Under the pieces are notes generated by a model, which ran no database searches, had not been told where the DNA came from, and saw nothing but the letters and a program-made list of their open reading frames with translations. Both the position numbers and the translations under genes were made by a program. Below are positions 1,050 to 28,654 of a stretch of DNA of 33,157 nucleotides, piece by piece (position 1 is the stretch's first letter; the number at the start of each line of letters is the position of its first letter). The stretch is taken from positions 1 through 33,157 of the IMG/VR virus record IMGVR_UViG_3300026094_001012. One strand, given 5' to 3'. The DNA is from a virus.

Positions 1050-2204
1050 ATGTCGCTCAGAATCAGAAGAGGATTAAGCACTGATCTTCCAACGCCTGTC
1101 GAAGGTGAACTGTTATATACAACAGATAATGGTAACCTGTATGTAGGATTCTTAGATCCGTCTACTAACACAGTTGTACCAAGGCTCACTAGCGGTCAAT
1201 TAATTAATGACGCTAATCCTACATTAGCAGCAAATCTTGATTTAAATGGTAACAACATTCTAGGCACAGGCGATATAAACATTGACGGCACTATTACGGC
1301 AACAGGCAACATTAATCTAGGTGATGGCTTTGAAGATAATGTTATTGTTGGCGGTCAGATTGGATCAGACTTAATACCTAATACCGATGATGCTTACGAC
1401 CTTGGTACACAGAATGTTAGATGGAGAAACGGCTATTTCCAAGGTCTTGAAGTCGACGGAGAAATTTCTGCTGGTTCGTTGCTTGTTACAAATATTTCTA
1501 CCCCTGATAGCACTAGTATTTATAGCGGAGCAGAAGGCGAGCTTTCTGTACCTGTTGTAACAGCGGACTCAATCAATGCTGCATCTATTAACGGAGATAT
1601 AAAAGGATCAATTTTTGGCGACGACTCTTCACTTTTAGTAGATGCTGTTTCAAACTCTTTTTTCACTTCGTCTATAGAAATTTCAGATTCAAGTATAAGA
1701 CGTATCGACAGCGGATTTGAATTAACGTTCGAAGGAAAATCACTAGCAGTACAATATTATGAAGTAGACTCGGATCTTGCTTCTGCTCCTAGATTTTTAT
1801 GGAAAGCAGGAAGAAATAACGGTGATATTATAGCTCCAGTTCAGACTAACGACACTGTAGGGGCAATTATTGGCACAATATTTGACGGGTCAGCAGAAGT
1901 TCCTAATTCTGCTATATCAATTGTAATAGACGAAAAAACTGGCACTTATGATTATCCTAGTAGATATAATCTTGAATTAGCAAACCCAGAAGGCGAATTG
2001 TTCGATGCTTTAACGGTTAATTCGACGGGAACTGCTTCTGCAAATATATTTAAAACTGGTACATACAGCAACGAATCGGAAAGAGATGCTTCTATTCCTA
2101 CTCCGGAAGCAGGTATGATTATTTTCTTATCCGGCCACGATGACAGTACAGGAACTCCTAAATTCCAAGGTTATGATGGCAATAGTTGGATAGATTTCAG
2201 TTAA
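1050..2204 (+). CDS. Phage fibre-like virion structural protein
   Basis: A 384-residue protein. The N-terminus (RIRRGLSTDLPTPVEGELLYTTDNGNLYVG, about residues 4-33) is the capsule-like motif found at the start of many phage fibre and tropism proteins. Residues about 60-140 contain short repeats with the pattern LDLNGNNI..GDINIDG.ITATGNINLG, then DLIPNTDDAYDLGTQNVRWRNGYF, the 'DLG...RWRN.Y' motif common in T4-like fibres and often beta-helical. The C-terminus (PEAGMIIFLSGHDDS...KFQGYDGNSWIDF) is a typical phage fibre ending. It is probably part of a tail or accessory fibre. A late-promoter octamer and AGGAG ribosome site precede it. Its stop overlaps the stop of the opposing radical SAM gene by 4 bases. 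Confidence 0.8.
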   Translation: MSLRIRRGLSTDLPTPVEGELLYTTDNGNLYVGFLDPSTNTVVPRLTSGQLINDANPTLAANLDLNGNNILGTGDINIDGTITATGNINLGDGFEDNVIVGGQIGSDLIPNTDDAYDLGTQNVRWRNGYFQGLEVDGEISAGSLLVTNISTPDSTSIYSGAEGELSVPVVTADSINAASINGDIKGSIFGDDSSLLVDAVSNSFFTSSIEISDSSIRRIDSGFELTFEGKSLAVQYYEVDSDLASAPRFLWKAGRNNGDIIAPVQTNDTVGAIIGTIFDGSAEVPNSAISIVIDEKTGTYDYPSRYNLELANPEGELFDALTVNSTGTASANIFKTGTYSNESERDASIPTPEAGMIIFLSGHDDSTGTPKFQGYDGNSWIDFS

Positions 2205-3451
2205 GGCAAGTATTCAAAAATATTTTCGAATTTTTGATTTCTGACTTTATTATAGAGCTCTAAAACTCTTTTCATTTCTTCTCTAACTTCAATATAATCT
2301 TCTGGTGTTTTTTCCAATAGTGCATGGATACCTTCTAGTTCTGAATGCAATCTCGAATTTTTATAACCTATTTCTGATTCTTTAACAAAACCAAGAGCAT
2401 TATTAATTTGCAAACTTGCCTTTTCCTTTGTGGTTACGTTTAGATACGGCACAGAAAAATATTTTGGATCGACTACTAAATTACAGGAAATCCTAATTGG
2501 AAAATCTCTTGATAACTTTTCAAATTGTTTTAAAATATTATGAATTTCAAGAACATTAAAAACATTTATTGTTAAAGAAAAAGTTACATTAAATTCAAAA
2601 TTATTTAAAACGTACATTAAATTTTTTGTAAATGTGTCATACCTAGCCGGATGTCTAATATAATGAAACGCATCAGCATCAACACTATCATATGATATTA
2701 CTAGAATTAAATTTTTAAAATGCGTAAGTAATTTTAGAGTTTCTGCGTCTACATTTGAAAGATTCGTTATTATTTCTATATTACAATCGACTAGGCCCTT
2801 TTCGTATAATCTTTGCAGAATCTTTATAGTAATAGGATTAATTAGAGGCTCACCTCCCACAAGCATTATAGTTTTTAAGTAAGGTGCAAGGTTTATAAGG
2901 TTGTCTATTGCTTTATCTATTTTATTCTTGGGCAATCGATACAGTTCATTACCTTCATTCAAATTGTTTTCAATAAAATCTAAAAGTTGTGGTATTTTAT
3001 CAGAATAGTTCTTTTTAATATGTTTGATTTCAGTTTCGTGCTGAGAACTTTCCATCTGAGTACACATTATACACTTTAAATTACATAAATTTCCTAGTTT
3101 AAATTCAAATAAATTGGGATAAATTGACAGTTCGCCTGTTTTTGAATTAAAAGAATTTATTATTGAGTTGTATTCGTCTTGAGAAATGATTTGGTTTTGA
3201 TCTAACCTTGACGAAAATCCTCCTTGTGATTCTCGACGCCAGCACTGACTGCAATTTTTATGCTTTATGCCGTTTACTAGATCTAATCTAAGGTTTTTAT
3301 AAAAGTCACTGTTCCAAATATCTTCAATTGAATCTTCTACTGCTGAAAATCCTAAAGGCAAGCCTTCGCAACAAGTTCTAAAGTCACCAGAATTAGTCGT
3401 GCTCATCATTTTGAAAGGCAATACACAGAAAGTTTCTTTATTTGGTTTCAT
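2201..3451 (-). CDS. Radical SAM protein with N-terminal twitch-type Cys domain
   Basis: 416 residues. The radical SAM cluster motif is C123-x3-C127-x2-C130 (NLCNLKCIMC), with a GGEP motif at about 199-202, so it should bind a 4Fe-4S cluster and cleave S-adenosylmethionine. Before it lies a Cys domain with C9, C27-C28 and C67-x2-C70. This is the arrangement of the 'twitch domain-containing radical SAM' family, in which the auxiliary cluster domain precedes the catalytic barrel. The substrate is unknown. The start overlaps the stop of the upstream gene (3451-4266), forming a two-gene unit with an H-x-D...H protein. The coding DNA is extremely AT-rich (about 16% GC over 2521-2640), unlike the adjoining fibre gene, which suggests recent acquisition. 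Confidence 0.85.
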   Translation of the reverse strand: MKPNKETFCVLPFKMMSTTNSGDFRTCCEGLPLGFSAVEDSIEDIWNSDFYKNLRLDLVNGIKHKNCSQCWRRESQGGFSSRLDQNQIISQDEYNSIINSFNSKTGELSIYPNLFEFKLGNLCNLKCIMCTQMESSQHETEIKHIKKNYSDKIPQLLDFIENNLNEGNELYRLPKNKIDKAIDNLINLAPYLKTIMLVGGEPLINPITIKILQRLYEKGLVDCNIEIITNLSNVDAETLKLLTHFKNLILVISYDSVDADAFHYIRHPARYDTFTKNLMYVLNNFEFNVTFSLTINVFNVLEIHNILKQFEKLSRDFPIRISCNLVVDPKYFSVPYLNVTTKEKASLQINNALGFVKESEIGYKNSRLHSELEGIHALLEKTPEDYIEVREEMKRVLELYNKVRNQKFENIFEYLP

Positions 3452-4266: not shown

Positions 4267-4271
4267 TCTTA

Positions 4272-4299: not shown

Positions 4300-4304
4300 T
4301 TGGT

Positions 4305-5012: not shown

Positions 5013-5574
5013 AATTTGGATTTAATCTAAGAATATCATCTTTTACTGTTTTAGTTAATCTTCCTGCAAATTCAATATTCTTTATATTTGGATTTGATAA
5101 CCAAAAATCAATTGCGCTAATCACTTCTGTATAGGAAATACACATATCGCCTTTAATTTTTGTATCATCTTCGTAATCTTTTGGTTCTTGTTCAAGATGA
5201 CTTATATCAAGATGCAAGCACGGAATAGCATCAGGATTAAGACAGTATAGGCTAACAGTATCAAATAAGATTTGTTTATCCTTTGCTGATTTTTTTAAAA
5301 TTATATCTTGATAAAACCGTGCAACACTACCCATAACTATCATTTTTCCAACATGATCAACTAATCTTTCGAATAAATGAATTTGAACCCCATCGGCATA
5401 ACAGTTATTAATAAACAAATCACAGCCTTTACTTTCTTCAATCACGTCTAGCAAAGAATCTGGCAAGTTATATCCGTTTGATCTAGAGAATCCGATAACT
5501 TCGTTCTTTTTAGAATAGTAGTCATATAATGCTTTGCCTATTCCCGATGTGTGGCCCGTAATTGCTATTTTCAT
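4993..5574 (-). CDS. SDR-like NAD(P)-binding protein, catalytic Tyr apparently lost
   Basis: 193 residues, Rossmann fold of the short-chain dehydrogenase type. It has T6-G7-x3-G11-I-G13 at the N-terminus, the FSRSNGYNL segment, and DLFINN at about 52-57 (the NNAG position). It is a paralogue of 6170-6631, whose N-terminus is nearly identical. The partner carries Y94-x3-K98, but the aligned position here reads KKSAKDK with no Tyr, although the Ser of MGS is kept. It may bind cofactor without normal SDR catalysis, or act with the partner. The start overlaps the sulfotransferase stop by one base (TAATG). A sugar or alcohol oxidoreductase role is only a guess. Confidence 0.65.
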   Translation of the reverse strand: MKIAITGHTSGIGKALYDYYSKKNEVIGFSRSNGYNLPDSLLDVIEESKGCDLFINNCYADGVQIHLFERLVDHVGKMIVMGSVARFYQDIILKKSAKDKQILFDTVSLYCLNPDAIPCLHLDISHLEQEPKDYEDDTKIKGDMCISYTEVISAIDFWLSNPNIKNIEFAGRLTKTVKDDILRLNPNFTGQLT

Positions 5575-6170
5575 TATTTCTTATAACCTAAGTGTAAAAA
5601 ATCATCAGAATAATAGTTTTGTATTATTGTTTTAGAAGAGTCAGTCAACTTTTCTTGTATATCAACACCTTTTCCTATATGGGTTAAACTGTTAAAACAG
5701 TTTTCTACCTGTTGTATTTTTCTAAATGCATTTGTAATATTCTCAAAATGTAGTATATAATCTACATCAATCTTATTGTTTCTAGAAATATAACTAAATT
5801 GCGGTTTTAAAAACGGGTAAAATGTTTCCGATGGCAGAATTTCTTCAACAAAATAGTTAAGACCCTTTTCCCATTTTTCCATATTTAATCCCACACTTTC
5901 TATATAGTTGGCCACCGGACGCCTAGTTTTTAAAACTCTGAATGCTTCCTTATACAGACTTTCTATTCGAGAATAAGGATTTCTTACTACTGCAAAAGAG
6001 TAAGAATATCTAAAATGATCAAAATCTACTATACCCCCGTGTTCTATTTTGTATATCTCTTCAACGAATTCTAATTGTTCTAACCAAGCAAGTATACATC
6101 TACCTGCATTTTTTGGAATATGAATATGTAGGATCGAATTTCCGTTTTTTTTTGTTACAAGATAACTCAT
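5574..6170 (-). CDS. Sulfotransferase-family protein
   Basis: 198 residues. The N-terminal HIPKNAGRC (about 17-25) matches the 5'-phosphosulfate loop of PAPS-dependent sulfotransferases (PK-x-G-x-T/S type). FAVVRNPYSRIESLY (about 59-73) matches the 3'-phosphate-binding motif (R-x-P-x-x-R-x-x-S). It resembles the small carbohydrate sulfotransferases rather than the larger aryl type. Expected reaction: transfer of sulfate from PAPS to a hydroxyl of a sugar or other small acceptor, in the cytoplasm, since no signal or membrane segment is seen. It lies between two SDR-like paralogues with one-base stop/start overlaps on both sides, so the three should be co-expressed. Confidence 0.75.
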   Translation of the reverse strand: MSYLVTKKNGNSILHIHIPKNAGRCILAWLEQLEFVEEIYKIEHGGIVDFDHFRYSYSFAVVRNPYSRIESLYKEAFRVLKTRRPVANYIESVGLNMEKWEKGLNYFVEEILPSETFYPFLKPQFSYISRNNKIDVDYILHFENITNAFRKIQQVENCFNSLTHIGKGVDIQEKLTDSSKTIIQNYYSDDFLHLGYKK

Positions 6171-8475: not shown

Positions 8476-9036
8476 ATGTTTGAAATTATAGAATGGAACG
8501 AAAAACTGAATTTAAATTCCTTTTATAGTAATGCCGCAGAAAGAGGTTTTGTTAATAACTCTTCTCAGAAAAAAATGATAGACTGTTTTCGAAACGAAAA
8601 AGAATGGAATGCATGGATACTTTATAAAGGCGGTTCTGCGATAGGTAGTGTTGCTGCGCATAGCTTCGAAGATATTATGGGAGAAAATTCTTTTAGAATA
8701 CTTACTAGAACTTGTTCATTTGCAGAATACGCACCGTCAAAAGGGTTAATTACACCAAAAAAATTAGTCGCACAACATCAAAACTTTACTGACCAATTTC
8801 TACTTCCTACTTGTTTAGATTGGGTAGATGATCGAGGAAGGGTGTTTGCTACTTCAAACGCTAACGAACAAGGTAGCCAACGTCTGGTTCATAATTATTA
8901 CTTTCCTACTTTAGTGAAGATTGGCATTGTATCAAAAGTAAAAGATGTTTATTACAGGCATACCTATCAAACAGTATGGGAAATACACCCTGATAACTTT
9001 TATGCTAACCTAAGTAAATTTCCTAGGTGGCAATAG
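8476..9036 (+). CDS. GNAT-like putative acyltransferase, conserved in marine phages
   Basis: 186 residues. The central part, ILYKGGSAIGSVAAHSFEDI..NSFRILTRTCSF (about residues 48-83), has the beta-hairpin and conserved Arg pattern of N-acyltransferase folds. QHQNFTDQFLLPTCLDW and NANEQGSQRLVHNYY follow. I associate these blocks with an uncharacterised protein common in T4-like marine phages. A classic acetyl-CoA loop (Q/R-x2-G-x-G/A) is not evident, so the activity is uncertain. An AGGAC ribosome site precedes the ATG. It stands alone on the plus strand, and its 3' end overlaps the opposing gene by 14 bases. Confidence 0.5.
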   Translation: MFEIIEWNEKLNLNSFYSNAAERGFVNNSSQKKMIDCFRNEKEWNAWILYKGGSAIGSVAAHSFEDIMGENSFRILTRTCSFAEYAPSKGLITPKKLVAQHQNFTDQFLLPTCLDWVDDRGRVFATSNANEQGSQRLVHNYYFPTLVKIGIVSKVKDVYYRHTYQTVWEIHPDNFYANLSKFPRWQ

Positions 9037-9691
9037 TAAGGCTGAATTCTGTAGGATCTAAGTTATCAAGTTCGTGTAATCTATCTGTTTGTAAATCAAA
9101 TGACACACCATCTGATATAATTTTAAAATTAGCAAGAGTATTTTGTTTATTAAACTCATTTAGAAGAGGGCTTATTTTATTATCAAAAATAAATCTTGCT
9201 TTTTCGTGTATTGGTCTAACTATAACTCTACTAGGATTGACCAATTGAGTTTGTATAAGACGTTTTCTTACCACTAATTGATATCTGTCGTTACAGTCAA
9301 GATTGACAGCAGAATGTATTCGTCCTGCGTCCATTTCATAAATAATTCCATCGTTTTCAATTTTGTGTATTTCTTGATTATCTACATCCATAAAATAAGA
9401 ATTTTCGCCTACTACGTTTAGGTGATATCTATCGTCAATATCAGCATGTTGCAAATAGCAATTTCCTGATGAAAGATTAATAATTCTTGCTTCGCCTATA
9501 TCCTCAGGAAAAAAATCTAAAATACTTTCCCATACAGTGTTTTTAAATTCTTCTTTTATGATCCATTTATCATAGAAAAAATCACCCGTTGGTTGATTGA
9601 GTGAGGTTTTAACATCACTCATTTTAGAGATATAAGTTGATGCGTCTTTAATTAATTCTAATGGTATAGTTCTATAGGTAGCTGTTATCAT
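9023..9691 (-). CDS. 2OG/Fe(II) or Asp-hydroxylase-like oxygenase with long C-terminal tail
   Basis: 222 residues from the ATG at 9691. A TTG at 9715 would add eight residues but would overlap the promoter-like octamer. H82-A-D84 (LQHADIDDRYH), H126 (AGRIHSAVN) and R136 (DRYQLVV) form the metal and 2-oxoglutarate-binding pattern of the Asp/Asn hydroxylase fold, complete by about residue 145. The remaining about 75 residues are a distinct tail of unknown function. The ATG has no ribosome site and follows GGTAAATA by 5 bases. It stands divergent to the QueC-like operon and convergent to the GNAT-like gene. Confidence 0.65.
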   Translation of the reverse strand: MITATYRTIPLELIKDASTYISKMSDVKTSLNQPTGDFFYDKWIIKEEFKNTVWESILDFFPEDIGEARIINLSSGNCYLQHADIDDRYHLNVVGENSYFMDVDNQEIHKIENDGIIYEMDAGRIHSAVNLDCNDRYQLVVRKRLIQTQLVNPSRVIVRPIHEKARFIFDNKISPLLNEFNKQNTLANFKIISDGVSFDLQTDRLHELDNLDPTEFSLTIAT

Positions 9692-9696
9692 ATGGA

Positions 9697-9704
9697 TATT
9701 TACC
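9697..9704 (-). promoter_or_regulatory. Late-like octamer GGTAAATA, 5 bases before ATG 9691
   Basis: The complement of 9697-9704 is GGTAAATA, then TCCAT, then ATG. Spacing is identical to that at 4292-4305 and 9733-9746, again without a Shine-Dalgarno sequence, implying a leaderless or near-leaderless transcript. Confidence 0.4.
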
Positions 9705-9732
9705 GTTTCAGACAAAAATCAAAAAAAGTAAC

Positions 9733-9740
9733 GATAAGTA
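9733..9740 (+). promoter_or_regulatory. Late-like octamer GATAAGTA, 5 bases before ATG 9746
   Basis: GATAAGTA (two differences from TATAAATA) is followed by TTTCC and the ATG at 9746. It supports choosing this start rather than the ATG at 9692 and would produce a near-leaderless transcript for the QueC-like/radical SAM operon. Confidence 0.35.
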
Positions 9741-9745
9741 TTTCC

Positions 9746-10471
9746 ATGCGCATAGATCATAACATATCTCTTCCGTACGACAAAAAATGGCAGAGAATAG
9801 GCGTTAGTGTAAGCGGCGGCGCAGATAGTGCGTTGTTATTGTATTTAATAAGTAAAAAATACGATTGTGAAATACACGTTATCACCCAAATTCGCTGCTG
9901 GAAAACAAGACCTTGGCAACGGTATAATAGTGTAGCAGTGTTTGATTGGATGCAAGAAACGTTCTCAGATAAAAAATTTATCAGGCATGAAGGTTTCATT
10001 CCGCCTGATCTAGAATGGGCAGATAAAGGTCCTAACATTGTCGACGAGTACGGTAAACTAAAAAGCGGTAACCAAATAATTTTGCGATCACACAACGAAT
10101 ATATTTGTCATAGAGAAAATCTAGATGCTTGGTTTGCCGCAGTTAATCTTAACCCTGATATTAAGATAGACAATGCGTTAGAAGATAGAAACGAAGGCCA
10201 TATTCCTCCTGTTTTTGAACACATGGATACTGTTGTTTGTCATCCTTTTATTCATACTAGGAAAGATTGGATAATACAGCAATACTTTGACTACGATATC
10301 TTAGATCTGTTAGAACTCACTAGAAGTTGTGAAGGAGATAAAAATGATTATCCTGAAGTATTTGGTGATCTAGATTATAAAAACTATATACCGGGACAGG
10401 CTGTTCCAACATGTGGCAAATGTTTTTGGTGTAAAGAAAGAGAGTGGGCTCTAAGTCGTGTCAAAGAATAA
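9746..10471 (+). CDS. QueC-like PP-loop ATPase
   Basis: 241 residues from the ATG at 9746. The same frame opens at 9692, but the extra 18 residues are Lys-rich and would overlap the divergent promoter. SGGADS (23-28) is the PP-loop that binds ATP and adenylates a carboxyl or related group. C195 together with C223-x2-C226-x2-C229 (TCGKCFWC) reproduces the zinc site of 7-cyano-7-deazaguanine synthase QueC. The middle (ITQIRCWKTRPWQRY, HTRKDWIIQQYF) is divergent, so the substrate may be another carboxylate converted to amide or nitrile. No QueD, QueE or FolE homologue is seen here. It starts an operon with three radical SAM genes, with 14 bases of overlap to the next. Confidence 0.7.
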   Translation: MRIDHNISLPYDKKWQRIGVSVSGGADSALLLYLISKKYDCEIHVITQIRCWKTRPWQRYNSVAVFDWMQETFSDKKFIRHEGFIPPDLEWADKGPNIVDEYGKLKSGNQIILRSHNEYICHRENLDAWFAAVNLNPDIKIDNALEDRNEGHIPPVFEHMDTVVCHPFIHTRKDWIIQQYFDYDILDLLELTRSCEGDKNDYPEVFGDLDYKNYIPGQAVPTCGKCFWCKEREWALSRVKE

Positions 10472-11729
10472 TTCCTGTACATTTTGTATGCATCCATTTA
10501 CTGGTCTAGCTACTAGAGAAGACGGTGCTATTAAAATCTGCTGTAGAAGTCAGCCTGTGGGATGGATACAGGAACAAAGCATCGAAGAAGTCTGGAACTC
10601 AGACAAAATGAAAGACGTTCGTAGACAGGTTCTAAGCGGTGAGAGACCTGATGTCTGTATCCCGTGTTTCGATTTAGAAGATCAAGGCGTAGAGAGCTTA
10701 AGACAGCGTCATATACGCGGAGTTATACCCGAGGCTAGAGTCAACCTTTATCCCGATGCTTTAGACAAGCTAGAACACGATTATTCAATGCCGTTTGAAT
10801 TGCCCACTATGGAGATCAAGATCAACAATCTCTGTAATCTAAAGTGCCGCATGTGTAATCCTCTTGATTCTACTTCATGGACTGACTGGAAGGAAGTTGA
10901 ATCGTTCTACGAAAAAGAAAACAATTATCTTGTGCCTACAGTTAAAAAACTTACATCACGGCCTGGGCAGTATATTGGACCATTTGATGATTCTAATAAT
11001 TGGTGGAGTGATTTTGAAAAACTGCTACCTCATTTTAGAAGAGTAGAATTTGCGGGGGGTGAGCCTCTAATGGATCCTAACCATTACAAAATTCTCGACA
11101 TGTTGAAACCCTATGCTGATAACATTGAAATCAAGTATGCTACAAATGGCACCAAACTAGGCATATCAAAAGGCAGAACCATATTTAACTACTGGCCGCA
11201 CTTCAAGTCAGTAGCTGTAAATGTCAGTATTGATGGCATACATGATGTATACGATTACATAAGAGGCAACGGAGAGTTTGCGCTTGTAGAAGAAAACATA
11301 AAAAAGATAAAAGAAATACCTACGGTATCAAGAATAGTCGGTGCGTTTACAGTTCAATCTAATAACATAATGCAGATCGATAAAGTTATAGAATATTTTC
11401 TAGAAGAGATGGGCATTATTTTCTACAGTCACAGAGTAAACTATCCTAGAGCGCTGTCGGCACAGGTTCTGCCTAACGAGTTGAAACAGCAGGTTATAGA
11501 AAAACTCGAAGCAATGAAACACACAGTAGAAGACTACGAGATGGTTAAAAATAATTCCGTCATTCGTGAGGTAACTCTACAACAGATTCAAGATAACATT
11601 AACTTTCTACAAGCCGAAGACCTAAGCGAGTGCTGGCAAGACTGCCTAGAGTTTAACCGCAAATTAGACGCTACAAGAAATCAGGGTCCATTAGAAAAGA
11701 TAATACCACAATTTAAGCCTTATGTATAA
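10458..11729 (+). CDS. Radical SAM protein with N-terminal twitch-type Cys domain
   Basis: 423 residues with a GTG start at 10458 inside the end of the PP-loop gene. C126-x3-C130-x2-C133 (NNLCNLKCRMC) is the SAM cluster motif and GGEP is at 200-203. The N-terminal domain has C10, C28-C29 (IKICCRS) and C67-x2-C70 (VCIPCFDLEDQG), an auxiliary Fe-S domain placed ahead of the barrel as in 2201-3451 and 13743-15152. The C-terminal region after about residue 300 is helical and Cys-poor apart from SECWQDCLEF. Substrate unknown. Coupling to a QueC-like ATPase and two further radical SAM genes points to a shared pathway. Confidence 0.85.
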   Translation: MSKNNSCTFCMHPFTGLATREDGAIKICCRSQPVGWIQEQSIEEVWNSDKMKDVRRQVLSGERPDVCIPCFDLEDQGVESLRQRHIRGVIPEARVNLYPDALDKLEHDYSMPFELPTMEIKINNLCNLKCRMCNPLDSTSWTDWKEVESFYEKENNYLVPTVKKLTSRPGQYIGPFDDSNNWWSDFEKLLPHFRRVEFAGGEPLMDPNHYKILDMLKPYADNIEIKYATNGTKLGISKGRTIFNYWPHFKSVAVNVSIDGIHDVYDYIRGNGEFALVEENIKKIKEIPTVSRIVGAFTVQSNNIMQIDKVIEYFLEEMGIIFYSHRVNYPRALSAQVLPNELKQQVIEKLEAMKHTVEDYEMVKNNSVIREVTLQQIQDNINFLQAEDLSECWQDCLEFNRKLDATRNQGPLEKIIPQFKPYV

Positions 11730-16224: not shown

Positions 16225-16823
16225 TATTTTTCGCCAATCAACATAAATCGTGTGTATTTAAGGAGCTCTAGTTCGTCTGATAGAACTAGATCGAGTTTGC
16301 TTATTTGTTCAAAATTATCTAGATCTGGTGAACAACGTATATGTTCCTTGCAATCAAAATAGTTGTTACTCTGTAAAATAACTAAAGTTTTTTTGTTTGG
16401 AACATTTTCAAGCCAGCGATTATATTGCTCCTGCGTTAGGTGCTCGCAGCTGGTGTTAATTACTATGTCAGCGTCATATTTATACGAACACATATCTGCT
16501 GTGACTGCAGAAAATCTGCCTTGCATTTCGTATCTTTTGTTAACAGTATTAGCAGTTTCTTTACAATCGGGATCTATATCAACCGAAGTAATATGTTCAA
16601 TGGAAATATTTGAATTAAAAAGCAGAGATGCTAGAACTCCGTTCCAGCCGCCGTGGATAACAACGCGATTAGGCTTATCTGATGCATACTTTGATAGATT
16701 TTCTATTAGCCATATCTTAGAACGAATTTGACCCTTCCAAAAACTTTCTAGAGTTCTATATCTATCACTAGAATTCCTTACAGCATCCATCCAAAATAAA
16801 ACATCTTCTATGTCAACTTTCAT
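16224..16823 (-). CDS. Class I SAM-dependent methyltransferase-like protein
   Basis: 199 residues. Motif I is VVIHGGWNGVLAS (about 54-66), followed by SVDIDPDC (80-87) with the acidic residue that binds SAM ribose. DADIVINTSCEHL (117-129) occupies the motif IV region. The fold assignment is firm but the acceptor is unknown. The long N-terminal helix region (DVLFWMDAVRNSSDRY) precedes the Rossmann core. It lies between two radical SAM genes with 11- and 1-base overlaps, so it likely modifies the same substrate. Confidence 0.7.
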   Translation of the reverse strand: MKVDIEDVLFWMDAVRNSSDRYRTLESFWKGQIRSKIWLIENLSKYASDKPNRVVIHGGWNGVLASLLFNSNISIEHITSVDIDPDCKETANTVNKRYEMQGRFSAVTADMCSYKYDADIVINTSCEHLTQEQYNRWLENVPNKKTLVILQSNNYFDCKEHIRCSPDLDNFEQISKLDLVLSDELELLKYTRFMLIGEK

Positions 16824-17808: not shown

Positions 17809-18463
17809 ATAACCATTCAAAGTCGTTTATTTTCTGTAACTCGATAATGTTGTCTTTGTTTTCTTCACCGAATTTTCTACCTTCTTTAGCGCCTTTTATA
17901 GCATCAATGCCAAACGGTCGATTTACACCTTGATTACACCATATTTCTAAGCGTTCAAGTGTTTCTGTATTGAGTTGTCTGTCTATTGTCTGGCTAGCAA
18001 GTTTCGCACACTCTCTAAAACCAGATCGCCAAGCACTAAATGAATCAGTATTAAATGCTGTTATGTTTGATGTTTCGTTAATTGCTTTAAAACTATTGGA
18101 TATACTAGTTGTCATGTCGGGTTTAGAAGTATCCATTTTTAGGGCCTTGATTCTAGGAAGTAGTTTTACTCCTCCATAACCGTATATCAAATCATTTACA
18201 GGGTTCTGAGAACGCCACACATGTACAGTGTCTAAATTATATTCGTCTACTTCGTAATCGAAAGAAAAATTGTCAAGTAGTTCAGCGTCTGCATCTACTA
18301 CCCAAAACATTTTTGTAAAACATTTTTTTGCGGCTTTAATGTGTGCCTGATGAATTCCTTTTACCCCATCTACTCTTTTAGCGGAAGGAAAACGAGACTT
18401 TAACAGGTCCCAGTTTTTATCTGCGTTTGATTCGTTATAGGATATAAAGACGATATCATACAT
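17777..18463 (-). CDS. GT-A-like glycosyltransferase with DAD motif
   Basis: 228 residues. An N-terminal YDIVFISYNES strand leads to FWVVDADA, with D57-A-D59 as the metal and nucleotide-sugar binding motif of GT-A enzymes. NDLIYGYGGVKLLPR and FSAWRSGFRE follow. It is paralogous to 28651-29553, which shares the SY.E.NA.KN opening, RV.GVKG, the DAD motif, YG.GG.KL and AFRAG.RE. The sugar donor and acceptor are unknown. An imperfect late-like octamer (complement of 18479-18486, TATAAATT) overlaps the end of the upstream gene, so it may have its own promoter in addition to read-through. Confidence 0.65.
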   Translation of the reverse strand: MYDIVFISYNESNADKNWDLLKSRFPSAKRVDGVKGIHQAHIKAAKKCFTKMFWVVDADAELLDNFSFDYEVDEYNLDTVHVWRSQNPVNDLIYGYGGVKLLPRIKALKMDTSKPDMTTSISNSFKAINETSNITAFNTDSFSAWRSGFRECAKLASQTIDRQLNTETLERLEIWCNQGVNRPFGIDAIKGAKEGRKFGEENKDNIIELQKINDFEWLYERFSTNTIR

Positions 18464-18481: not shown

Positions 18482-19261
18482 TTATAGCAATTTGTCAATC
18501 AATGGCCTAAGTTGATCAGCTACTTGTCTGTGTATATCTGCGCCGTCGTGCATTAGATCTCTTGCCCGGCCGGTGTCTTTAGTTTCTATCATATGTAAAT
18601 CCTCAAAATTACAATCAAAATCTCCTGTCCAAGACCAGTTTAAGACCGGCACTTCACGAAGTTTCCATAATAAATTACTTGACAGATAATGAAAATGGTT
18701 GTTCACTATCATTTCTCCTTCGTCAACACAGTATCTTTTTAAATACCAAGAAGTATCATGCTTCTCTATATTACTGTTTACATTATGGTGTTTGAGTTCA
18801 ATATGTTTTTCTGATTTATATGCGAAACTTTTTCTGAATGTTTGCGGCCATTGATATATTACTGCTTTAGGCATAGGATAGCTGTTGTCGATCCATTGCA
18901 TAGTGTTTATATATTGAATGTCGGACCCTGTGCCTGCTTTTCCTAGATTTAGAAAATCTATACCTAACCTTGACAATAGTTGAGAGCACCATATGTCTTC
19001 TTCAAAATTGCCTATTCCTTCTGTGTGCGAGCAACCAAAAACCAAAACAAAATCTTGGTCTAGATCTTTTATATTTTTTGTTCTATAGCCTTCATTGTTA
19101 AATCTATATTCTATGTCACGTTTGAGGTATTTTAGATCTACTAGTTTTTTTTGTCTTTGAAACTGCCTATATTCTTCGTCTCCGTCATAAGATTTTACAG
19201 TTTTGTTTTTGTGAAAATTGTCTATTAGTATTTGGTTTGATAAAAATTTTAAACTAGCCAT
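18482..19261 (-). CDS. SGNH/GDSL-hydrolase-like protein
   Basis: 259 residues from the ATG at 19261, which overlaps the dehydrogenase stop by 8 bases. An ATG at 19276 adds five residues. FGCSHTEG (75-82) matches the nucleophile block of SGNH enzymes with Ser78. LGKAGTGSD (106-114) matches the Gly block, and D242-x-H244 near the C-terminus could complete the catalytic set. Such enzymes deacylate or transfer acyl groups on glycans. The N-terminal about 70 residues are an extra region. Two other proteins here (22003-22650, 26415-27284) share the same three blocks. No signal peptide is seen, so the site of action is cytoplasmic unless exported by other means. Confidence 0.6.
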   Translation of the reverse strand: MASLKFLSNQILIDNFHKNKTVKSYDGDEEYRQFQRQKKLVDLKYLKRDIEYRFNNEGYRTKNIKDLDQDFVLVFGCSHTEGIGNFEEDIWCSQLLSRLGIDFLNLGKAGTGSDIQYINTMQWIDNSYPMPKAVIYQWPQTFRKSFAYKSEKHIELKHHNVNSNIEKHDTSWYLKRYCVDEGEMIVNNHFHYLSSNLLWKLREVPVLNWSWTGDFDCNFEDLHMIETKDTGRARDLMHDGADIHRQVADQLRPLIDKLL

Positions 19262-20477
19262 GTCGCGTATTACCATAGTGTATTACTCGACTAACCGAAC
19301 TAGTAAATTTCCTCCAAGGATCTATCACAATACTGAAAGGAGGAATAGGACAGTAAATCTCGTCTCTAGTTTTTGTTTCTGTATAATCATATGTTACTGA
19401 GGCAGAATGTGCCATGAGAAATACGCCAGACTCTGTAGGTTGATAATCGTCGCCGGTATAAGGGTCTATATAGGTAGGTTTAATTCCTGCTTCTTGAACA
19501 TAGTGTCCGACTAAGAGGCTGTAGGATCCATCTGTATAAGGAACTTGAGGTTTATATGCTTTGCCGTGTATGTATACGGGCATGTTGTTTTCATTGGCGT
19601 GCTTTACTAGTTCGAGAGCAAGGTTTCGTGCTTGGATCTCTCTCGCATTCATAATAGCATCAAACAAATCATAGCCTAGGTCAAGTTCCTGTGCCATATA
19701 ACGTAGAGCGATATTATCTCTAGGATGGCAGGCGCCGCCGTCGCCCATACCTGCTGTCATATACTGAGAGCTCATAATACGTTTGGTAGAATTAGCAAGT
19801 GCATTTGTTACTACATCTACATTAATATTTCTCTGTTTTTCCGCAACGTCTTGGATCATGTTTACCAGTGATATTTTTGTAGAAATAAAAGTATTGTAAA
19901 AAACCTTGATACACTCACATTCGTCGTATGTTCCTACAACTGTAGAAGGATTGTTTTCCATAACAGTATCGTAGAATTCTTTTAACTGTTTAGCATCGCC
20001 TGTTTCAGATCCGTTGTCGGTGCCAATCATTATCATTTCTGGATTGACCATGTCCCAGCCAACAGATCCCATTGCTATTAGATAGGGGTTATAAACAAAT
20101 CTTGTGTTAGTTATAAGTGGTGTAAATTCTTTTCTTGTAGTTCCAGGTAATACAGTAGAAATTAATACTAACAACTGGCCTCGGTTCATATGTGTGTCTG
20201 CTTCTTGGAGGACAGACTTCACAGTATCGTAGGAGAAGTCTTTTGGCGGCAAATGGTGTGTCGGAGCACTTCCGTCGTAGTCAGCATCATGTGGTGTAGG
20301 TACTGCAACAAACACAATGTCGCAGTCTTGAACACACGCTTCGATACTAGAAGTGAATTCAACTAAGTCACTCTCGAGAGGTTCGAGATCATATCCTTTT
20401 ACATTATGCCCCTTTTTAGCAATTTCTTCTGCGCAGGGCAGGCCCAATTTACCTACTCCAATATATCCAATCTGCAT
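19254..20477 (-). CDS. UDP-glucose/GDP-mannose dehydrogenase-family protein
   Basis: 407 residues, close to the usual family length. G7-x-G9-x2-G12 is the NAD Rossmann motif (IGYIGVGKLGLP). VFVAVPTPH, STVLPGTTR and PEMIMIGTDN are standard family blocks. K191 and the YNTF helix correspond to the catalytic Lys/Asn region. C250 in GDGGACHPRDN is the nucleophile that forms the thioester. It should oxidise a nucleotide sugar at C6 to the uronic acid in two NAD-dependent steps. It sits second in the minus-strand operon, overlapping the upstream gene by 25 bases. The presence of this enzyme is the strongest evidence for sugar-nucleotide metabolism in the island. Confidence 0.85.
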   Translation of the reverse strand: MQIGYIGVGKLGLPCAEEIAKKGHNVKGYDLEPLESDLVEFTSSIEACVQDCDIVFVAVPTPHDADYDGSAPTHHLPPKDFSYDTVKSVLQEADTHMNRGQLLVLISTVLPGTTRKEFTPLITNTRFVYNPYLIAMGSVGWDMVNPEMIMIGTDNGSETGDAKQLKEFYDTVMENNPSTVVGTYDECECIKVFYNTFISTKISLVNMIQDVAEKQRNINVDVVTNALANSTKRIMSSQYMTAGMGDGGACHPRDNIALRYMAQELDLGYDLFDAIMNAREIQARNLALELVKHANENNMPVYIHGKAYKPQVPYTDGSYSLLVGHYVQEAGIKPTYIDPYTGDDYQPTESGVFLMAHSASVTYDYTETKTRDEIYCPIPPFSIVIDPWRKFTSSVSRVIHYGNTRHG

Positions 20478-21418: not shown

Positions 21419-22006
21419 ATGTCATTTAATAGTGTTTTTCTACTAGAAGATAAAATTTCTAAATTTTTCGGGTCGCCTTATGCAGTTGCTACTGATTGCT
21501 GTACGCATGCCTTAGAGTTGTGTTTAAGATTGACGAATGCAAAAATCGCCGTATCTCCAAACCAAACTTATATTTCTGTTCCTTTCGTCTTTGAAAAATT
21601 AGGGCTAGAGTGGCAATTTGAAAATGATTTATGGCATGACTTTTATTATATAACAGATGACATAATAGACGCTGCTGTGTATTGGCAAGAGAACGGTTAT
21701 TTGTCTCACACCTACATGTGTTTAAGTTTCCAATACAAGAAACACCTTGGACTAGGACGCGGCGGCGCTATTTTACTAGATAACGAAGACGACTATTTAA
21801 AGTTAAAAAAGATGAGCTATGATGGCAGATTGCCTGATACACCTTGGGCAGAACAAAACATTGACACTATAGGTTATCACTATTACATGACACCTGAAAC
21901 AGCAGAATTAGGTTTAGAAAAATTACCAATAGCAATCAGAACACAACCAAAAAAATGGTTCTGGGAAGATTACCCTGATCTATCTACAATGAAGGTTTTT
22001 CAATGA
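21419..22006 (+). CDS. Half-length DegT/DnrJ/EryC1-type aminotransferase-like protein
   Basis: 195 residues, about half the usual about 370 of this PLP-dependent sugar aminotransferase family. The pieces present are GSPYAVATDCCTHALEL (about 18-34, phosphate-binding loop), SPNQTYISVPF, DAAVYW (84-89, equivalent to the EDAA Asp that contacts the PLP nitrogen) and SFQYKKHLGLGRGG (103-116) with K108 at the Schiff-base Lys position. The C-terminal small domain is mostly gone, replaced by a short tail. No frameshift remnant follows, since the next gene overlaps the stop as ATGA, so this is a genuine short form. It may be a minimal or heterodimeric aminotransferase for a keto-sugar. Confidence 0.7.
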   Translation: MSFNSVFLLEDKISKFFGSPYAVATDCCTHALELCLRLTNAKIAVSPNQTYISVPFVFEKLGLEWQFENDLWHDFYYITDDIIDAAVYWQENGYLSHTYMCLSFQYKKHLGLGRGGAILLDNEDDYLKLKKMSYDGRLPDTPWAEQNIDTIGYHYYMTPETAELGLEKLPIAIRTQPKKWFWEDYPDLSTMKVFQ

Positions 22007-22650
22007 AAATTCTAACTTTTGGAGATAGCTGGGCTGCCGGTTGGGGATTAAAAGAAGAAGAAGGAAATTTTACTAATTTTTTAGCAAATTTGCTAAATTG
22101 TAAAGAAATAAATTATGGCAAAAGTTCTAGTAGCTTAGGACAAATTCTACATGACTTCACAAAAAAAATTCATAATGCAAAACAAAATGATTTTGTTATT
22201 GTTATAATACCTCCAGATACTAGATGGTATACAGAATCTAAGCAATACAGTTTTAGGAGCATGCTTCTAAACGACAAAGACTATAAAAATTTTGTTAATG
22301 ACAAATCAGATTATTGGTTTAGATATCATCACAGTTTATTTGTACATTCTCTCTACAGTATTTGTGAGCAATTCAATTTAAATTATATTTTGGCACACAA
22401 CTACGGCCAACTTCAATTTGTCAACCCGTTCGATCAACTTATACCAGATTCGATTTTTTTGGATAGATATAACTCTTTGACTACTCTACTAGGAGGAGAA
22501 GATTATGCTAATTACGATTTAAATCACGACGGGCCTCCTGATTCTATAAAAGGAAATAATTTTATTCCTAAGGACACTCACCCGAACGAAAAAGGCCATA
22601 AACTTATTGCAGAAATGTTATTAGGAAAAATTCATGAAAAATTGCAATGA
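22003..22650 (+). CDS. SGNH/GDSL-hydrolase-like protein
   Basis: 215 residues. FGDSWAAGWG (6-15) is a clear GDSL block with Ser9. NYGKSSSSLGQ (37-47) is the Gly/Asn block region, VIVIIPPDTRW is the strand before the third block, and D191-x-H193 (KDTHPNEKGHKL) supplies the His. The set is more canonical than the two other copies here. Expected chemistry is esterase, deacetylase or acyltransferase on a sugar or lipid. It overlaps the aminotransferase by ATGA and the amidinotransferase by 17 bases. Confidence 0.75.
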   Translation: MKILTFGDSWAAGWGLKEEEGNFTNFLANLLNCKEINYGKSSSSLGQILHDFTKKIHNAKQNDFVIVIIPPDTRWYTESKQYSFRSMLLNDKDYKNFVNDKSDYWFRYHHSLFVHSLYSICEQFNLNYILAHNYGQLQFVNPFDQLIPDSIFLDRYNSLTTLLGGEDYANYDLNHDGPPDSIKGNNFIPKDTHPNEKGHKLIAEMLLGKIHEKLQ

Positions 22651-23608
22651 ATGGAATACTCTAAAAAAAGTTATAGTAGGTACTGCAACAGGCGCTAAGA
22701 TTCCTGCGTTAGACAAATCTCTTCGTACTGTGAATTACGCTGACCAACAAGATATTTCTCACATACAATCTAGAAATTATCCTACGCAGGTAATTGAAGA
22801 GACCAACGAAGATCTTGAAATTTTTTGTAATTTTCTAAAAAAAGAAAACGTAGAAGTTGTAAGACCAAACGATAACAATCCAAACTATTACAATTACTGT
22901 CCAAGAGATTCTGTGCTAGTGTATGGCGATAAATCCTATGCTACTCCAATGCCTATACAGTGCAGACAGACAGAGTATCAGGCATTCGAGTCGCACTTAA
23001 AGAATCTTACTGTTATGCCTGCTTATTACAATGACGATTTATACAATATAGATTGTGTAGGAGACCCTGATGTTCTTGCTTTACACGAGATTGCTCCTAG
23101 TTTTGATGCTGCTAACATAATTAGAGCAAATCAGGATATATTGTATCTTGTAAGCAATAGCGGTAATAAGAAAGGAGCAGAGTCTCTTCAAGATTTATTA
23201 GGCTCCTCGGTTCAAGTTCATACTTTAGAAAATGTATATTCCTATATGCATATTGATTCTACTGTTGCGTTTCTAAAAGAAGGCCTACTGTTAGTAAATC
23301 CAGAAAGAATTAAAAATAAATATCAACTGCCCAAGCCATTCTGTGACTGGGATGTTATCTGGGCGCCTGAGCCCAGCGATATAGGACATTACCCAGGAAT
23401 CTGTAACGCTAGTAAATGGATAAACATGAATTTGTTTTCCATTCGAGAAGATCTAGTTGTTTTAGAAAAACATCAAAACACACTTAGAATGTTGTTAGAG
23501 AAGAAAGGAATAGAATGTATTATGTTACCTATGCGTCATCAGCGAACATTGGGCGGAGGTTTTCATTGTGTAACACTAGACTTAGAGAGAGAACAAGATG
23601 TCATATAA
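22634..23608 (+). CDS. Amidinotransferase-family protein
   Basis: 324 residues, near full length for the glycine/inosamine amidinotransferase family. NEWNTLKKVIVGTA is the family start. YCPRDSVLVYGD (88-99), PSFDAANIIRAN (155-166) with Asp158, Y-MHIDST (204-210) with His206, and GGGFHCVTLDL (307-317) with Cys312 form the Asp-His-Cys catalytic triad. The enzyme should move an amidino group from arginine to an amine, as in creatine precursor or aminocyclitol (streptomycin-type) synthesis. Placed three genes after a DegT-like aminotransferase, an amino-sugar or aminocyclitol acceptor is a plausible inference, giving a guanidino-sugar. Confidence 0.85.
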   Translation: MKNCNEWNTLKKVIVGTATGAKIPALDKSLRTVNYADQQDISHIQSRNYPTQVIEETNEDLEIFCNFLKKENVEVVRPNDNNPNYYNYCPRDSVLVYGDKSYATPMPIQCRQTEYQAFESHLKNLTVMPAYYNDDLYNIDCVGDPDVLALHEIAPSFDAANIIRANQDILYLVSNSGNKKGAESLQDLLGSSVQVHTLENVYSYMHIDSTVAFLKEGLLLVNPERIKNKYQLPKPFCDWDVIWAPEPSDIGHYPGICNASKWINMNLFSIREDLVVLEKHQNTLRMLLEKKGIECIMLPMRHQRTLGGGFHCVTLDLEREQDVI

Positions 23609-26418: not shown

Positions 26419-27284
26419 AGAAAAAATTAGTTGATCAAAGTCCACGTAGACTTTTTACATTCGGTTGTTCCTTTACAGAGTACAAATGGGCAACATGGGC
26501 AAATATACTAGCATTTGAGTTTGGTTGTGAATTTTATAATTTTGGAAAAAGCGGAGCTGGTAATGCCTTTATATCTAATCAGATTACGCAGGCGAATCAA
26601 TATTATAACTTTGACGAAAATGATCTAGTAATAGCCTGCTGGACAAACGTATCAAGAGAAGATAGATGGAGCAGTCGAAAAGGCTGGGTAACTCCGGGAA
26701 ATATATATTCTCAGCAAGAATATGACATAAAATTTGTTAAGAGTTGGGCAAACGATATTCACTTTGCTCTTAGAGACTTTTCATATATAGATCTTGTAAA
26801 CAACTATCTCAATGGAAAGACCAATTATCACTTTATATCTATGTGTGACATAAAAAAGCACATAAATCAATGGGAGAGAGGAGAGAGTAAAGATAGAGAA
26901 AATATCGAAAACCTAGCTGACTTATACAAAGACTCATTAGACAATATTTCTCCTAGCTTTTACGAAACACTGTGGCACAACAACATCGACTATAAATGGA
27001 ATAAAGATTGGACAGAAATACATTCTAATTATTCAGACGGACATCCTACTATCTTAGAGCATTATGAATATCTAACAAAAACGTTTGATTTTGATTTTTC
27101 AGAACGAACAAAAAATGCAGTGAATTTATTGCATGCCCAATGGCGAAACTATATTCAAGAAGGATATAAAAGCACCAAACGCAGTTGCGGGCTACACGAC
27201 ATGCCAAGACAGTGGACCGAGGCCATTTACGATAATTTTAGGTTAAAAGAAGAATTACCTATACCTCATCATTTATATCATTGA
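26415..27284 (+). CDS. SGNH-hydrolase-like protein
   Basis: 289 residues. FTFGCSFTEYKW (14-25) corresponds to the nucleophile block with Ser19. NFGKSGAGNAF (42-52) corresponds to the Gly block, and D208-x-H210 (SDGHPTILEH) to the His block. The middle insertion (about 85-195) is longer than in 22003-22650. It is closest in block text to 18482-19261 (GCSxT, GKxGxG). Probably an esterase or acyltransferase of a glycan. It is the last gene of its operon and overlaps the opposing radical SAM stop by 7 bases, leaving no room for a terminator between them. Confidence 0.6.
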   Translation: MKKKLVDQSPRRLFTFGCSFTEYKWATWANILAFEFGCEFYNFGKSGAGNAFISNQITQANQYYNFDENDLVIACWTNVSREDRWSSRKGWVTPGNIYSQQEYDIKFVKSWANDIHFALRDFSYIDLVNNYLNGKTNYHFISMCDIKKHINQWERGESKDRENIENLADLYKDSLDNISPSFYETLWHNNIDYKWNKDWTEIHSNYSDGHPTILEHYEYLTKTFDFDFSERTKNAVNLLHAQWRNYIQEGYKSTKRSCGLHDMPRQWTEAIYDNFRLKEELPIPHHLYH

Positions 27285-28654
27285 TTTTTACATAAATCCC
27301 AAAAATTCTGCATCTCAGGAAACGTTTCTACAAGGCTTACATTTCTCCTACGATCGTGTTCGAAAAACCATGCGTTAAAGTTTTTACGAGCAAGGATCAG
27401 TTTGTCTTGTTCATAATCAGTAGTCTCCATATAGTCAACTACCCGCTTAAACTTTTCGTATTCTAGGTCTGTAAACTTAGTTCTGTCTGAATTGTCTAGA
27501 TTCTGTTTTATAAACTCTAAATGACTGCGCATATAAGGCATGAATTCGTCTTTGGGAAGAATGTTCATATCAAATATAGCAGGTTCTTTTAGATGAGGCG
27601 TGTCGAAGCGAATTCTCTGCCATTGTGTCTCGTTTTCATCCGAGTTATACTTGGTTCTCCATTCTAGTATCTTTTCTAGAAGACTAGTAAAACTAGTAAC
27701 ACCAAATATGTTAAAAGTAATCATAAATGTCACAGGCAATCCTGTGTTAGACAGATAATAGTCTAGATTTCTCTCCCATAATTCGATATCCAGTCCATGT
27801 CGTGCGTATTCTGCTCTTTTACCCCAGGTGTCGATAGAAGTATAAAGTTTAAAACTCTTAATAGCACCAATACTGCGTAGATGCGTAATTCGATCTACCA
27901 ATCGTTCTACTAGTTTGGGCTTAACTCCGAGGTTTGAATTTATTTCTATCTGAATATGTGGTTTAGGATCTTCTTCCAGCCTATCAAACAGATCCCAGGT
28001 GCTTTTGTGCATCAAAGGTTCGCCGCCTGTTATGCGCAAGATGTTTAGAGTCTTTGAAACTTCTGGCCACCAACGCCACCATGCTTCTACATAGGGATTT
28101 TCTTCTTCTTTCTGATAGATCTTAAACCAGTCTATGTCCTGTCTGTGATCTGTCGAAGTGTCATAGGGACCGTGATCGTTGATTTCCTTCCAGTATCTTG
28201 AACTTGCTTTAGGATGGCAGTATCCACATTTGAAATTACACTCATTTGAGAAAGAAATTTCTATATATTCAGGGTTTACGTTGTATTCTGCGCCGCCCTG
28301 TTTGATTTCTTCCAGTCTTTCTGGTGTATATATAGAAGCAGTCTTAATATGACGGTCTGATACATAATCTTTACCCATTGCTTCGATCTTCCAGCAATAG
28401 GAACAGCCTGCGGGCTGCTGGCCTTTCATCATAAACTCGCGTTCGGTCTTCTTCTGTTTGGTATTATGAAGCGCAGAAGGATTGTCTTTGATTTCATCTA
28501 GAGGTATAGGGTGCGGAGCAGGATGATAACAACTATGCGTTTCACCTGTTTGAAGGTAGATAGTAGTATGATGCCACTTTGCCATACAGAATGTCGGCGA
28601 TATTTCTCGATCAGTGTGAGGAATAATTTCCTTTATCTTTTCTAGTTCGTTCAT
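27278..28654 (-). CDS. Radical SAM protein with N-terminal twitch-type Cys domain
   Basis: 458 residues. C139-x3-C143-x2-C146 (NECNFKCGYC) is the SAM cluster motif and GGEP lies at 210-213. The N-terminal domain carries C23, C42 and C84-x2-C87 (GCSYCWKIE), but has a single Cys (C42 in HSCYHP) where the three other twitch-first proteins here have CC. The auxiliary cluster ligand set may therefore differ. It follows the DxD glycosyltransferase 28651-29553 through an ATGA overlap and is the last gene of the operon. Confidence 0.85.
   Translation of the reverse strand: MNELEKIKEIIPHTDREISPTFCMAKWHHTTIYLQTGETHSCYHPAPHPIPLDEIKDNPSALHNTKQKKTEREFMMKGQQPAGCSYCWKIEAMGKDYVSDRHIKTASIYTPERLEEIKQGGAEYNVNPEYIEISFSNECNFKCGYCHPKASSRYWKEINDHGPYDTSTDHRQDIDWFKIYQKEEENPYVEAWWRWWPEVSKTLNILRITGGEPLMHKSTWDLFDRLEEDPKPHIQIEINSNLGVKPKLVERLVDRITHLRSIGAIKSFKLYTSIDTWGKRAEYARHGLDIELWERNLDYYLSNTGLPVTFMITFNIFGVTSFTSLLEKILEWRTKYNSDENETQWQRIRFDTPHLKEPAIFDMNILPKDEFMPYMRSHLEFIKQNLDNSDRTKFTDLEYEKFKRVVDYMETTDYEQDKLILARKNFNAWFFEHDRRRNVSLVETFPEMQNFWDLCKNQ

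Follow-up and report, generated by a model that had tools for sequence, protein, structure and literature searches.

A radical SAM-rich island in marine phages

The stretch of DNA analysed here, hereafter the window, spans 33,157 nt (positions 1-33,157 of IMG/VR record IMGVR_UViG_3300026094_001012) and derives from uncultured marine giant phages. Its phage origin, asserted in an earlier note on this DNA, is borne out by the Mtd_N and Gp38 adhesin domains that score above cut-off at the window ends (Table 1) and by a syntenic 79-kb relative (G005) that carries nearly the entire island, with gene order kept and with phage genes and a tail-fibre cluster as its flanks. At the left flank, g01 shares 70% identity and a conserved position with its G005 counterpart; at the right, the Gp38-like adhesin gene marks the border of the tail-fibre cluster, which runs on in G005 and G001/G003. 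A T4-type capsid protein is present in two longer relatives, one closest to RaK2/PA5oct-type jumbo phages, and a DNA search with the first 25 kb of the window for the nearest cultured phages found none. As in myophage host-recognition clusters, a variable island with glycosyltransferases lies at tail-fibre genes, and in an uncultured marine jumbo phage of T4 type the window would be this host-recognition island, with a block of phage genes on one side and the tail-fibre cluster on the other.

Table 1. Features of the window, with the evidence on which each assignment rests
Feature	Coordinates	Strand	Basis
g01, left-flank phage gene	107..718	+	phrog_15894, a family common to RaK2/PA5oct-type jumbo phages
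g03, putative adhesin/fibre protein	1050..2204	+	Mtd_N, PF18454 29.5 bits (cut-off 26.3)
rSAM A, N-terminal-twitch, variable part	2201..3451	-	NF033640 274 bits
Sulfotransferase-like protein	5574..6170	-	phrog_3347 2.6e-8; PF03567 21.9 bits (cut-off 22, just missed)
g14, putative 2OG-Fe(II)-oxygenase-like, cassette member	9023..9715	-	HxD...H pattern, by eye
Q, PP-loop (SGGADS) ATPase, C-terminal CxxC-x2-C, cassette member	9692..10471	+	Invariant alignment columns
rSAM B, N-terminal-twitch, cassette core	10458..11729	+	NF033640 326 bits
rSAM C, C-terminal auxiliary Cys, cassette core	11722..12606	+	PF04055 42.6 bits
rSAM D, C-terminal auxiliary Cys, frequent cassette member	12603..13688	+	PF04055 59.7 bits
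rSAM E, N-terminal-twitch, most conserved cassette gene	13743..15152 (open frame reaches 15215)	-	NF033640 387 bits
rSAM F, overlaps E gene	15145..16224	-	PF04055 25.9-27.3 bits; family alignment
M, Rossmann-type SAM methyltransferase-like, cassette core	16224..16823	-	PF13649 17.5 bits, sub-threshold; alignment
rSAM G, C-terminal auxiliary Cys, cassette core	16813..17808	-	PF04055 37.5 bits
g23, predicted GT-A-fold glycosyltransferase with DxD, cassette member	17777..18463	-	AlphaFold2 + Foldseek
UDP-glucose/GDP-mannose dehydrogenase	19254..20477	-	PF03721/PF00984 ~67 bits each; phrog_9148 319 bits
Compact DegT/DnrJ-type aminotransferase	21419..22006	+	PF01041 48.2 bits
StrB1-like inosamine-phosphate amidinotransferase	22634..23608	+	PDB 1bwd E=9.8e-63
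rSAM H, N-terminal-twitch, variable part	27278..28654	-	NF033640 317 bits
g35, g23 paralogue, predicted glycosyltransferase	28651..29553	-	Alignment; paired with H
Two more glycosyltransferase-like genes	30110..31826	-	30110-30940: PF11051 23.8 bits (cut-off 22); second by eye
Gp38-like tail-fibre adhesin	32220..33157	-	PF05268 47 bits (cut-off 25); phrog_2056 5e-15

The earlier note had counted eight radical SAM (rSAM) proteins in at least three subfamilies, and both figures hold: PF04055 matches exactly these eight, all of which combine a CxxxCxxC motif with the barrel profile of the superfamily. Seven exceed the PF04055 cut-off of 29.5 bits; rSAM F lies below it and forms a conserved family with C18, C22 and C25 invariant in 27 homologues. 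Pfam E-values of 1e-5 to 5e-16 rule out chance, as do a low dN/dS, indicative of strong purifying selection (~0.04-0.12 when B, C, E, G and H are each compared with their closest relatives), and conservation across 80 or more viral loci.

A, B, E and H, described as carrying auxiliary cysteines ahead of the barrel, are indeed of the N-terminal-twitch type, all four scoring above the whole-protein cut-off of 170 bits of NCBIfam NF033640 ('twitch domain-containing radical SAM'). The cysteines placed behind the barrel in C, D and G are likewise invariant in alignments (C233, C253, C276, C281 and C283 in C, besides C24, C28 and C31; C268, C290, C311 and C316 in G). In F, the one protein called divergent, C263, C264, C333 and C337 of the C-terminal part are invariant too, so all eight rSAMs have extra conserved cysteines. 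Invariant in E are C51, C70, C126, C129, C183, C187 and C190, and the first four are consistent with auxiliary Fe-S cluster binding by the N-terminal-twitch proteins. Relatives of E in cultured phages amount to five records, at only ~21-25% identity. The model of E is of moderate confidence (pLDDT 80), and its structural matches (TMq ~0.25) are too weak to name a substrate.

A conserved cassette within the island

Not all eight proteins need serve one pathway. B, C, E, F and G, often with D, form one cassette with methyltransferase M, glycosyltransferase g23, PP-loop ATPase Q and putative oxygenase g14. In all 17 loci that extend 8 kb or more to both sides of E (13 of them distinct), g14, B, C, E, F, M and G are present, with Q and g23 in 15 each and D in 8. 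The earlier note had proposed a survey of marine phage contigs for co-occurring sets; here related phage contigs share a conserved set, for which a literature search found no description. Gene order is reshuffled between contigs although the set stays together, and the pairwise distances of B, C, E, M and G correlate (Spearman 0.46-0.83). Mean pairwise identity is 77% for B (n=53 sequences), and mean identity is 83% for E (n=79). In the window the overlapping cassette genes form two converging runs, Q-B-C-(D) on the plus strand and g23-G-M-F-E on the minus strand. A, in contrast, has just 4 close relatives in the fetched loci and H is found only in part of the related loci; the idea of a dedicated multi-step chemistry is supported for five or six rSAMs, to which A and H need not be added.

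No family match was obtained for g14 in Pfam, PHROGs or NCBIfam, nothing significant for M against PDB profiles, and no match there for Q or g23/g35. Q is distantly QueC-like (phrog_1550, 2.9e-8); it falls short of QueC itself (PF06508, 16.8 bits against a cut-off of 22). The AlphaFold2 model of g23 (mean pLDDT 91) returns mostly glycosyltransferases as top Foldseek matches, including WrtF, SunS, TarP and RmlT, at probability 0.99-1.00 and TM-score ~0.4; together with D57xD59, invariant in the alignment, this predicts a GT-A glycosyltransferase fold with DxD.

The variable part of the island includes A and H alongside genes for the amidinotransferase, UDP-glucose dehydrogenase, a sulfotransferase-like protein and glycosyltransferases. 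In relatives, g35 adjoins H. Among the fetched contigs, the amidinotransferase and aminotransferase occur only in G005/L014, which is one contig. Kinase-like and oxygenase-like genes also lie among the outer genes (kinase and 2OG-oxygenase assigned by eye).

Bacterial counterparts

On Bdellovibrionota chromosomes, homologues of E (44% identity), G (50-54%), g23 (41-42%), D (34-36%), F (32-38%) and M (31-43%) lie clustered with UGDH, and phage E and Bdellovibrionota E form one clade (support 100/99). A pattern scan of genome contigs gave only two loci, a limit of the method, since the later Bdellovibrionota profile search found many more. In one case (G053:C2) the block comes after a group of genes for GT2, NTP transferase, UDP-GlcNAc 2-epimerase, Bac_transf and Polysacc_synt_2; this glycan neighbourhood in cells is plain co-location on a handful of MAG contigs, with an O-antigen/EPS-type cluster adjacent once.

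Proposed function and alternatives

What would such a cassette make? The reading we favour, at about an even chance, is that it makes or tailors an unusual sugar-type building block for a surface glycan; its product, order of steps and benefit to the phage are what we infer. Five to six rSAMs with auxiliary (Fe-S-type) cysteines, the methyltransferase, the PP-loop ATPase, the putative oxygenase and the GT-A glycosyltransferase would act in sequence, and the block would then be attached either to the host O-antigen or capsule, excluding superinfecting phages, or to the phage's own fibres. The varying outer genes (UDP-glucose dehydrogenase, aminotransferase, amidinotransferase, sulfotransferase-like, kinase-like, oxygenase-like, glycosyltransferases, A and H) could add further decoration. 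Against this, glycosyltransferases are able to modify proteins or DNA as well. A glycan is nevertheless favoured because the neighbours are nucleotide-sugar and glycan enzymes and g23 is modelled as GT-A; because the closest solved relative of F, by profile match, is the cytosylglucuronate decarboxylase BlsE (PDB 7vob, 3e-8), which acts on a sugar nucleoside; because the Bdellovibrionota homologues cluster, in G053:C2 behind polysaccharide-type genes; and because the tail-fibre cluster adjoins and published host-recognition islands carry glycosyltransferases and rSAM cassettes (PMC7029224). The earlier note's statement that the substrate is unknown still stands, though the gene neighbourhood and the homologues in bacteria suggest a surface glycan. 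More tentatively, the five to six rSAMs, PP-loop ATPase, methyltransferase and glycosyltransferase in series might constitute an undescribed pathway to a new class of surface-glycan block, common to Bdellovibrionota and marine jumbo phages.

Could the substrate be a peptide instead? Peptides are common substrates of SPASM/twitch rSAMs, the best solved match of E in a PDB profile search is the peptide maturase SkfB (4.5e-10), those of C include YydG/EpeE (7e-7), and adhesin genes flank the island. The target modified by the rSAMs and oxygenases would then be a virion protein, such as one of the adjacent adhesins, or a RiPP-type peptide. However, no fitting precursor gene is present, and one hidden in the gaps is rejected because there is no room: annotated genes fill 98.9% of the window, whose largest gap is at most 55 bp, and the cassettes of L014, L047 and L071 lack any gap of 60 bp or more. 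Sugar genes abound nearby and the bacterial homologues lie away from phage adhesins, and we consider a peptide or virion protein unlikely.

It is more doubtful that the island makes a diffusible aminocyclitol- or nucleoside-like compound released on infection. The StrB1-like amidinotransferase (~1e-62), the DegT-type aminotransferase and the BlsE-like F would suit such a product, but the first two sit in the variable part and are confined to G005/L014 among the fetched contigs, an exporter or resistance gene was not seen, and the linkage to tail fibres would be left unexplained. Hypermodification of DNA or nucleotides, for example of deazaguanine type, as an evasion of restriction is quite improbable: Q is distantly QueC-like and phages G001 and G003 have a QueE-type gene (by motif) outside the island, but the QueC model stays under cut-off in the window and phage contigs, motif searches for FolE and QueD found none, TGT family matches number 0 of 9 contigs (incomplete contigs and a divergent DpdA could hide some), and the island is linked to tail fibres and sugar genes rather than to genes of replication. 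Viperin-type enzymes making chain-terminating nucleotides for antiviral defence or superinfection exclusion can be set aside as very improbable, since D scores 58.1 bits against the 180-bit cut-off of the prokaryotic viperin model NF038283, matches it over residues 17-139 only and carries extra C-terminal cysteines.

The analysis narrows at least five of the rSAMs down to a defined gene set, strongly conserved and present in dozens of uncultured marine phages, and the partial chromosomal counterpart, minimal gene list, likely product class and expressible orthologues make for a testable pathway. If the product of the favoured glycan pathway is a new sugar, ocean viruses would be altering the surface of cells or virions through oxygen-sensitive radical chemistry, and the cassette would also be a source of new enzymes.

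Comparison with known systems

To our knowledge, rSAM-rich phages have been on record since 2010 without a settled explanation. The density that the earlier note called exceptional is high but, such phages being known already, rare rather than unique: the Campylobacter phages CP220/CPt10 encode 11-12 rSAM proteins (PMC2853527), a T4-like TARA genome has 12 rSAM genes (PMC5332604), and relatives of the present contig have 6-15. Host-recognition islands with glycosyltransferases and rSAM cassettes are published (PMC7029224), with an insertion point between VrlC and gp14; that pelagimyophage/cyanomyophage cluster and the TARA genome share with the window a large variable tail-fibre island, glycosyltransferases, rSAM cassettes and a high rSAM count, whereas the relevant parts of the two sources describe no defined conserved cassette. 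Cyanophage S-SCSM2R (PQ898602) has a 63% identical amidinotransferase, a compact aminotransferase gene, a 2OG-Fe oxygenase and glycosyltransferases, but a single rSAM within the stretch read, where E was not found. The Bdellovibrionota clusters resemble the window in their clustered E, G, g23, D, F and M homologues and differ in being cellular, multi-copy and without tail fibres, with no close B or C within the stretches read. CP220/CPt10 belong to another phage lineage, and E and Q were not found in them; no N-terminal-twitch rSAM of CP220 reaches the NF033640 cut-off (the best scores 30.9 bits), and its rSAMs do not qualify as orthologous. The window amidinotransferase is ~25% identical to the Campylobacter phage genes. 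Even so, the interchangeable modules of CP220/CPt10, near baseplate genes, resemble the window in joining an rSAM run to an amidinotransferase and sugar transferases; in these modules the run has five rSAMs, the amidinotransferase is of glycine/inosamine type and the nucleotide-diphospho-sugar transferase genes number two (PMC2853527).

Radical SAM genes in phage DNA

The eight radical SAM (rSAM) genes claimed in the earlier note are borne out: PF04055 has exactly eight matches in the window, and seven of these exceed its curated cut-off, F falling slightly under it. The auxiliary cysteine domain precedes the barrel in four proteins, all above the threshold of the N-terminal-twitch profile NF033640, and auxiliary cysteines follow it in C, D and G, where the extra cysteines are invariant. 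F, described there as divergent, also carries extra invariant cysteines (C263, C264, C333 and C337).

The DNA is phage, as shown by adhesin-type domains and a jumbo-phage family in the window, and by synteny with a 79-kb viral contig, G005, which has nearly all window genes in almost unchanged order. In this contig phage genes lie left of the island, and a long tail-fibre/structural cluster follows on its right. A single ORF of 5,182 residues adjoins this cluster in G005, the closest long relative (L113 region, contig 43837-59385). Tail-fibre and collar genes also border the island in G001 (159.6 kb) and in G003 (104.7 kb), longer relatives encoding a T4-type gp23 capsid protein, which in G003 is 64-68% identical to gp23 of RaK2/PA5oct/Vibrio 2.275.O-type jumbo phages. 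The phage contigs are incomplete. Outside the island, QueE-type genes (QGEG...GCNxxC motif) occur at G001:2645-3652 and G003:79552-80415, with no recognisable FolE or QueD partners in either contig.

Coordinates of features in the window
Feature	Position	Remark
Family common to RaK2/PA5oct-type phages	107-718	
Mtd_N domain	1050-2204	
rSAM A	2201-3451	NF033640 exceeded
Kinase-like genes	4305-5012, 7734-8420	by eye, without convincing family match
g14, putative oxygenase	9023-9715	
Q, PP-loop ATPase	9692-10471	
rSAM B	10458-11729	NF033640 exceeded
rSAM C	11722-12606	
rSAM D	12603-13688	
rSAM E	13743-15152	NF033640 exceeded
rSAM F	15145-16224	
M, methyltransferase-like	16224-16823	
rSAM G	16813-17808	
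g23, predicted GT	17777-18463	
DegT/DnrJ-type aminotransferase	21419-22006	only 195 residues
rSAM H	27278-28654	NF033640 exceeded
g35, g23 paralogue	28651-29553	
Gp38-like adhesin	32220-33157	

A conserved cassette

E was used to scan viral contigs; of the 159 related stretches that this yielded, 80 were kept (75-100% identity). Co-occurrence was counted in 17 loci, with 13 different E proteins, in which E is flanked by at least 8 kb on either side. Every one of them contains g14, B, C, E, F, M and G; Q and g23 occur in 15 loci each, g35 in nine and D in eight, and A and H lie outside the fixed set. Gene order varies (L012, g23-F-G-M-E/C-B-Q; L020, g23-g35-H-UGDH-G-M-F-Q-E/D-C-B, UGDH being UDP-glucose dehydrogenase; L031, Q-E/C-B-M-F-G-g23-g35), and because the set persists despite this reshuffling, joint function explains it better than mere linkage. 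Spearman coefficients between the pairwise distances of B, C, E, M and G are 0.46-0.83, those between F and these five only 0.06-0.24; none of these values is corrected for shared phage ancestry. The dN/dS of B, C, E and G against nearest relatives is about 0.04-0.12. On both strands of the window, adjacent cassette genes share 1-32 bases, the convergent gap 13689-13742 being the only exception; such overlaps suggest translational coupling. A Thermoplasmata MAG includes a contig of 3.5 kb (PUNK01000001.1), probably phage DNA binned wrongly, on which homologues of cassette genes E (85%), D (71%) and C (80%) lie together.

Bacterial counterparts

Related genes reside in Bdellovibrionota, where proteins above the NF033640 cut-off occur in 30 of 114 genomes, some of which have a dozen or more. 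N-terminal-twitch rSAM genes in this phylum show large expansions as well as tandem arrays (for example G046:C4:2575-9905 and G019:C1:2.38-2.40 Mb). Chromosomal contigs (G053:C2, 1.62 Mb; G099:C34, 350 kb; G067:C26, 50 kb; G113:C183, 31 kb) combine E (44% identical) variously with homologues of G (50-54%), F, M, g23/g35, D and UGDH. The best bacterial E proteins group with phage E in a single clade (100/99); the other N-terminal-twitch proteins, B, A and H among them, fall outside it. An E homologue in a Bdellovibrionales MAG adjoins F homologues and glycosyltransferase-like genes. L132, L133 and L120, from a Bdellovibrionales MAG, have E-like and F-like genes side by side, in some cases overlapping, which hints that the two enzymes form a unit.

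Substrate and chemistry

What does the cassette act on? Twitch/SPASM enzymes frequently use peptide substrates and the best solved match of E is SkfB, so peptide modification is the strongest rival to the proposed building or tailoring of an unusual surface-glycan unit; it is opposed by the lack of room for a precursor gene and by the glycan-like surroundings of the bacterial homologues. The G053 block (119961-126314) is preceded by genes for GT2, an NTP transferase, a GDP-mannose-dehydratase-type enzyme, UDP-GlcNAc 2-epimerase, GT group 1, a bacterial sugar transferase and Polysacc_synt_2, a neighbourhood that is supportive of the glycan reading, though not statistically. A small-molecule product, DNA modification and a viperin-type role are weaker alternatives.

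For surface-glycan synthesis, the confident g23 model (pLDDT 91) has mostly GT-A glycosyltransferases as top structural matches, at modest TM-scores near 0.4, and the nearest PDB relative of F is BlsE, a cytosylglucuronate decarboxylase. The variable part encodes UDP-glucose dehydrogenase, a DegT aminotransferase, a StrB1-like amidinotransferase and a sulfotransferase-like protein; 2OG-Fe oxygenases, SGNH proteins and some glycosyltransferases were assigned by eye, without convincing family match. Known sugar-acting rSAM families catalyse dehydrogenation, epimerisation, deoxygenation and decarboxylation, and by analogy the cassette rSAMs may perform sugar steps of these types. Q keeps its PP-loop (SGGADS; SGGCDS in a few) and CxxC-x2-C cluster in 23 of 23 homologues; assignment as QueC was rejected, its score being under the cut-off.

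Precedents in other phages

In cyanophage S-SCSM2R, a gene as long as the 195-residue aminotransferase gene of the window, annotated as AHBA synthase, lies near the amidinotransferase. In each of twelve long relatives there are 6-15 matches to rSAM. A second cluster, of five weaker matches, lies at 114.9-122.6 kb in G001 (the contig of L020), about 80 kb from the island. Campylobacter phages carry 11-12 rSAM proteins (PMC2853527), a T4-like TARA genome has 12 (PMC5332604), and the host-recognition clusters of pelagimyophages contain rSAM cassettes (PMC7029224). The density that the earlier note called exceptional is thus rare in phages but already known, with higher counts in some relatives and in published phages.
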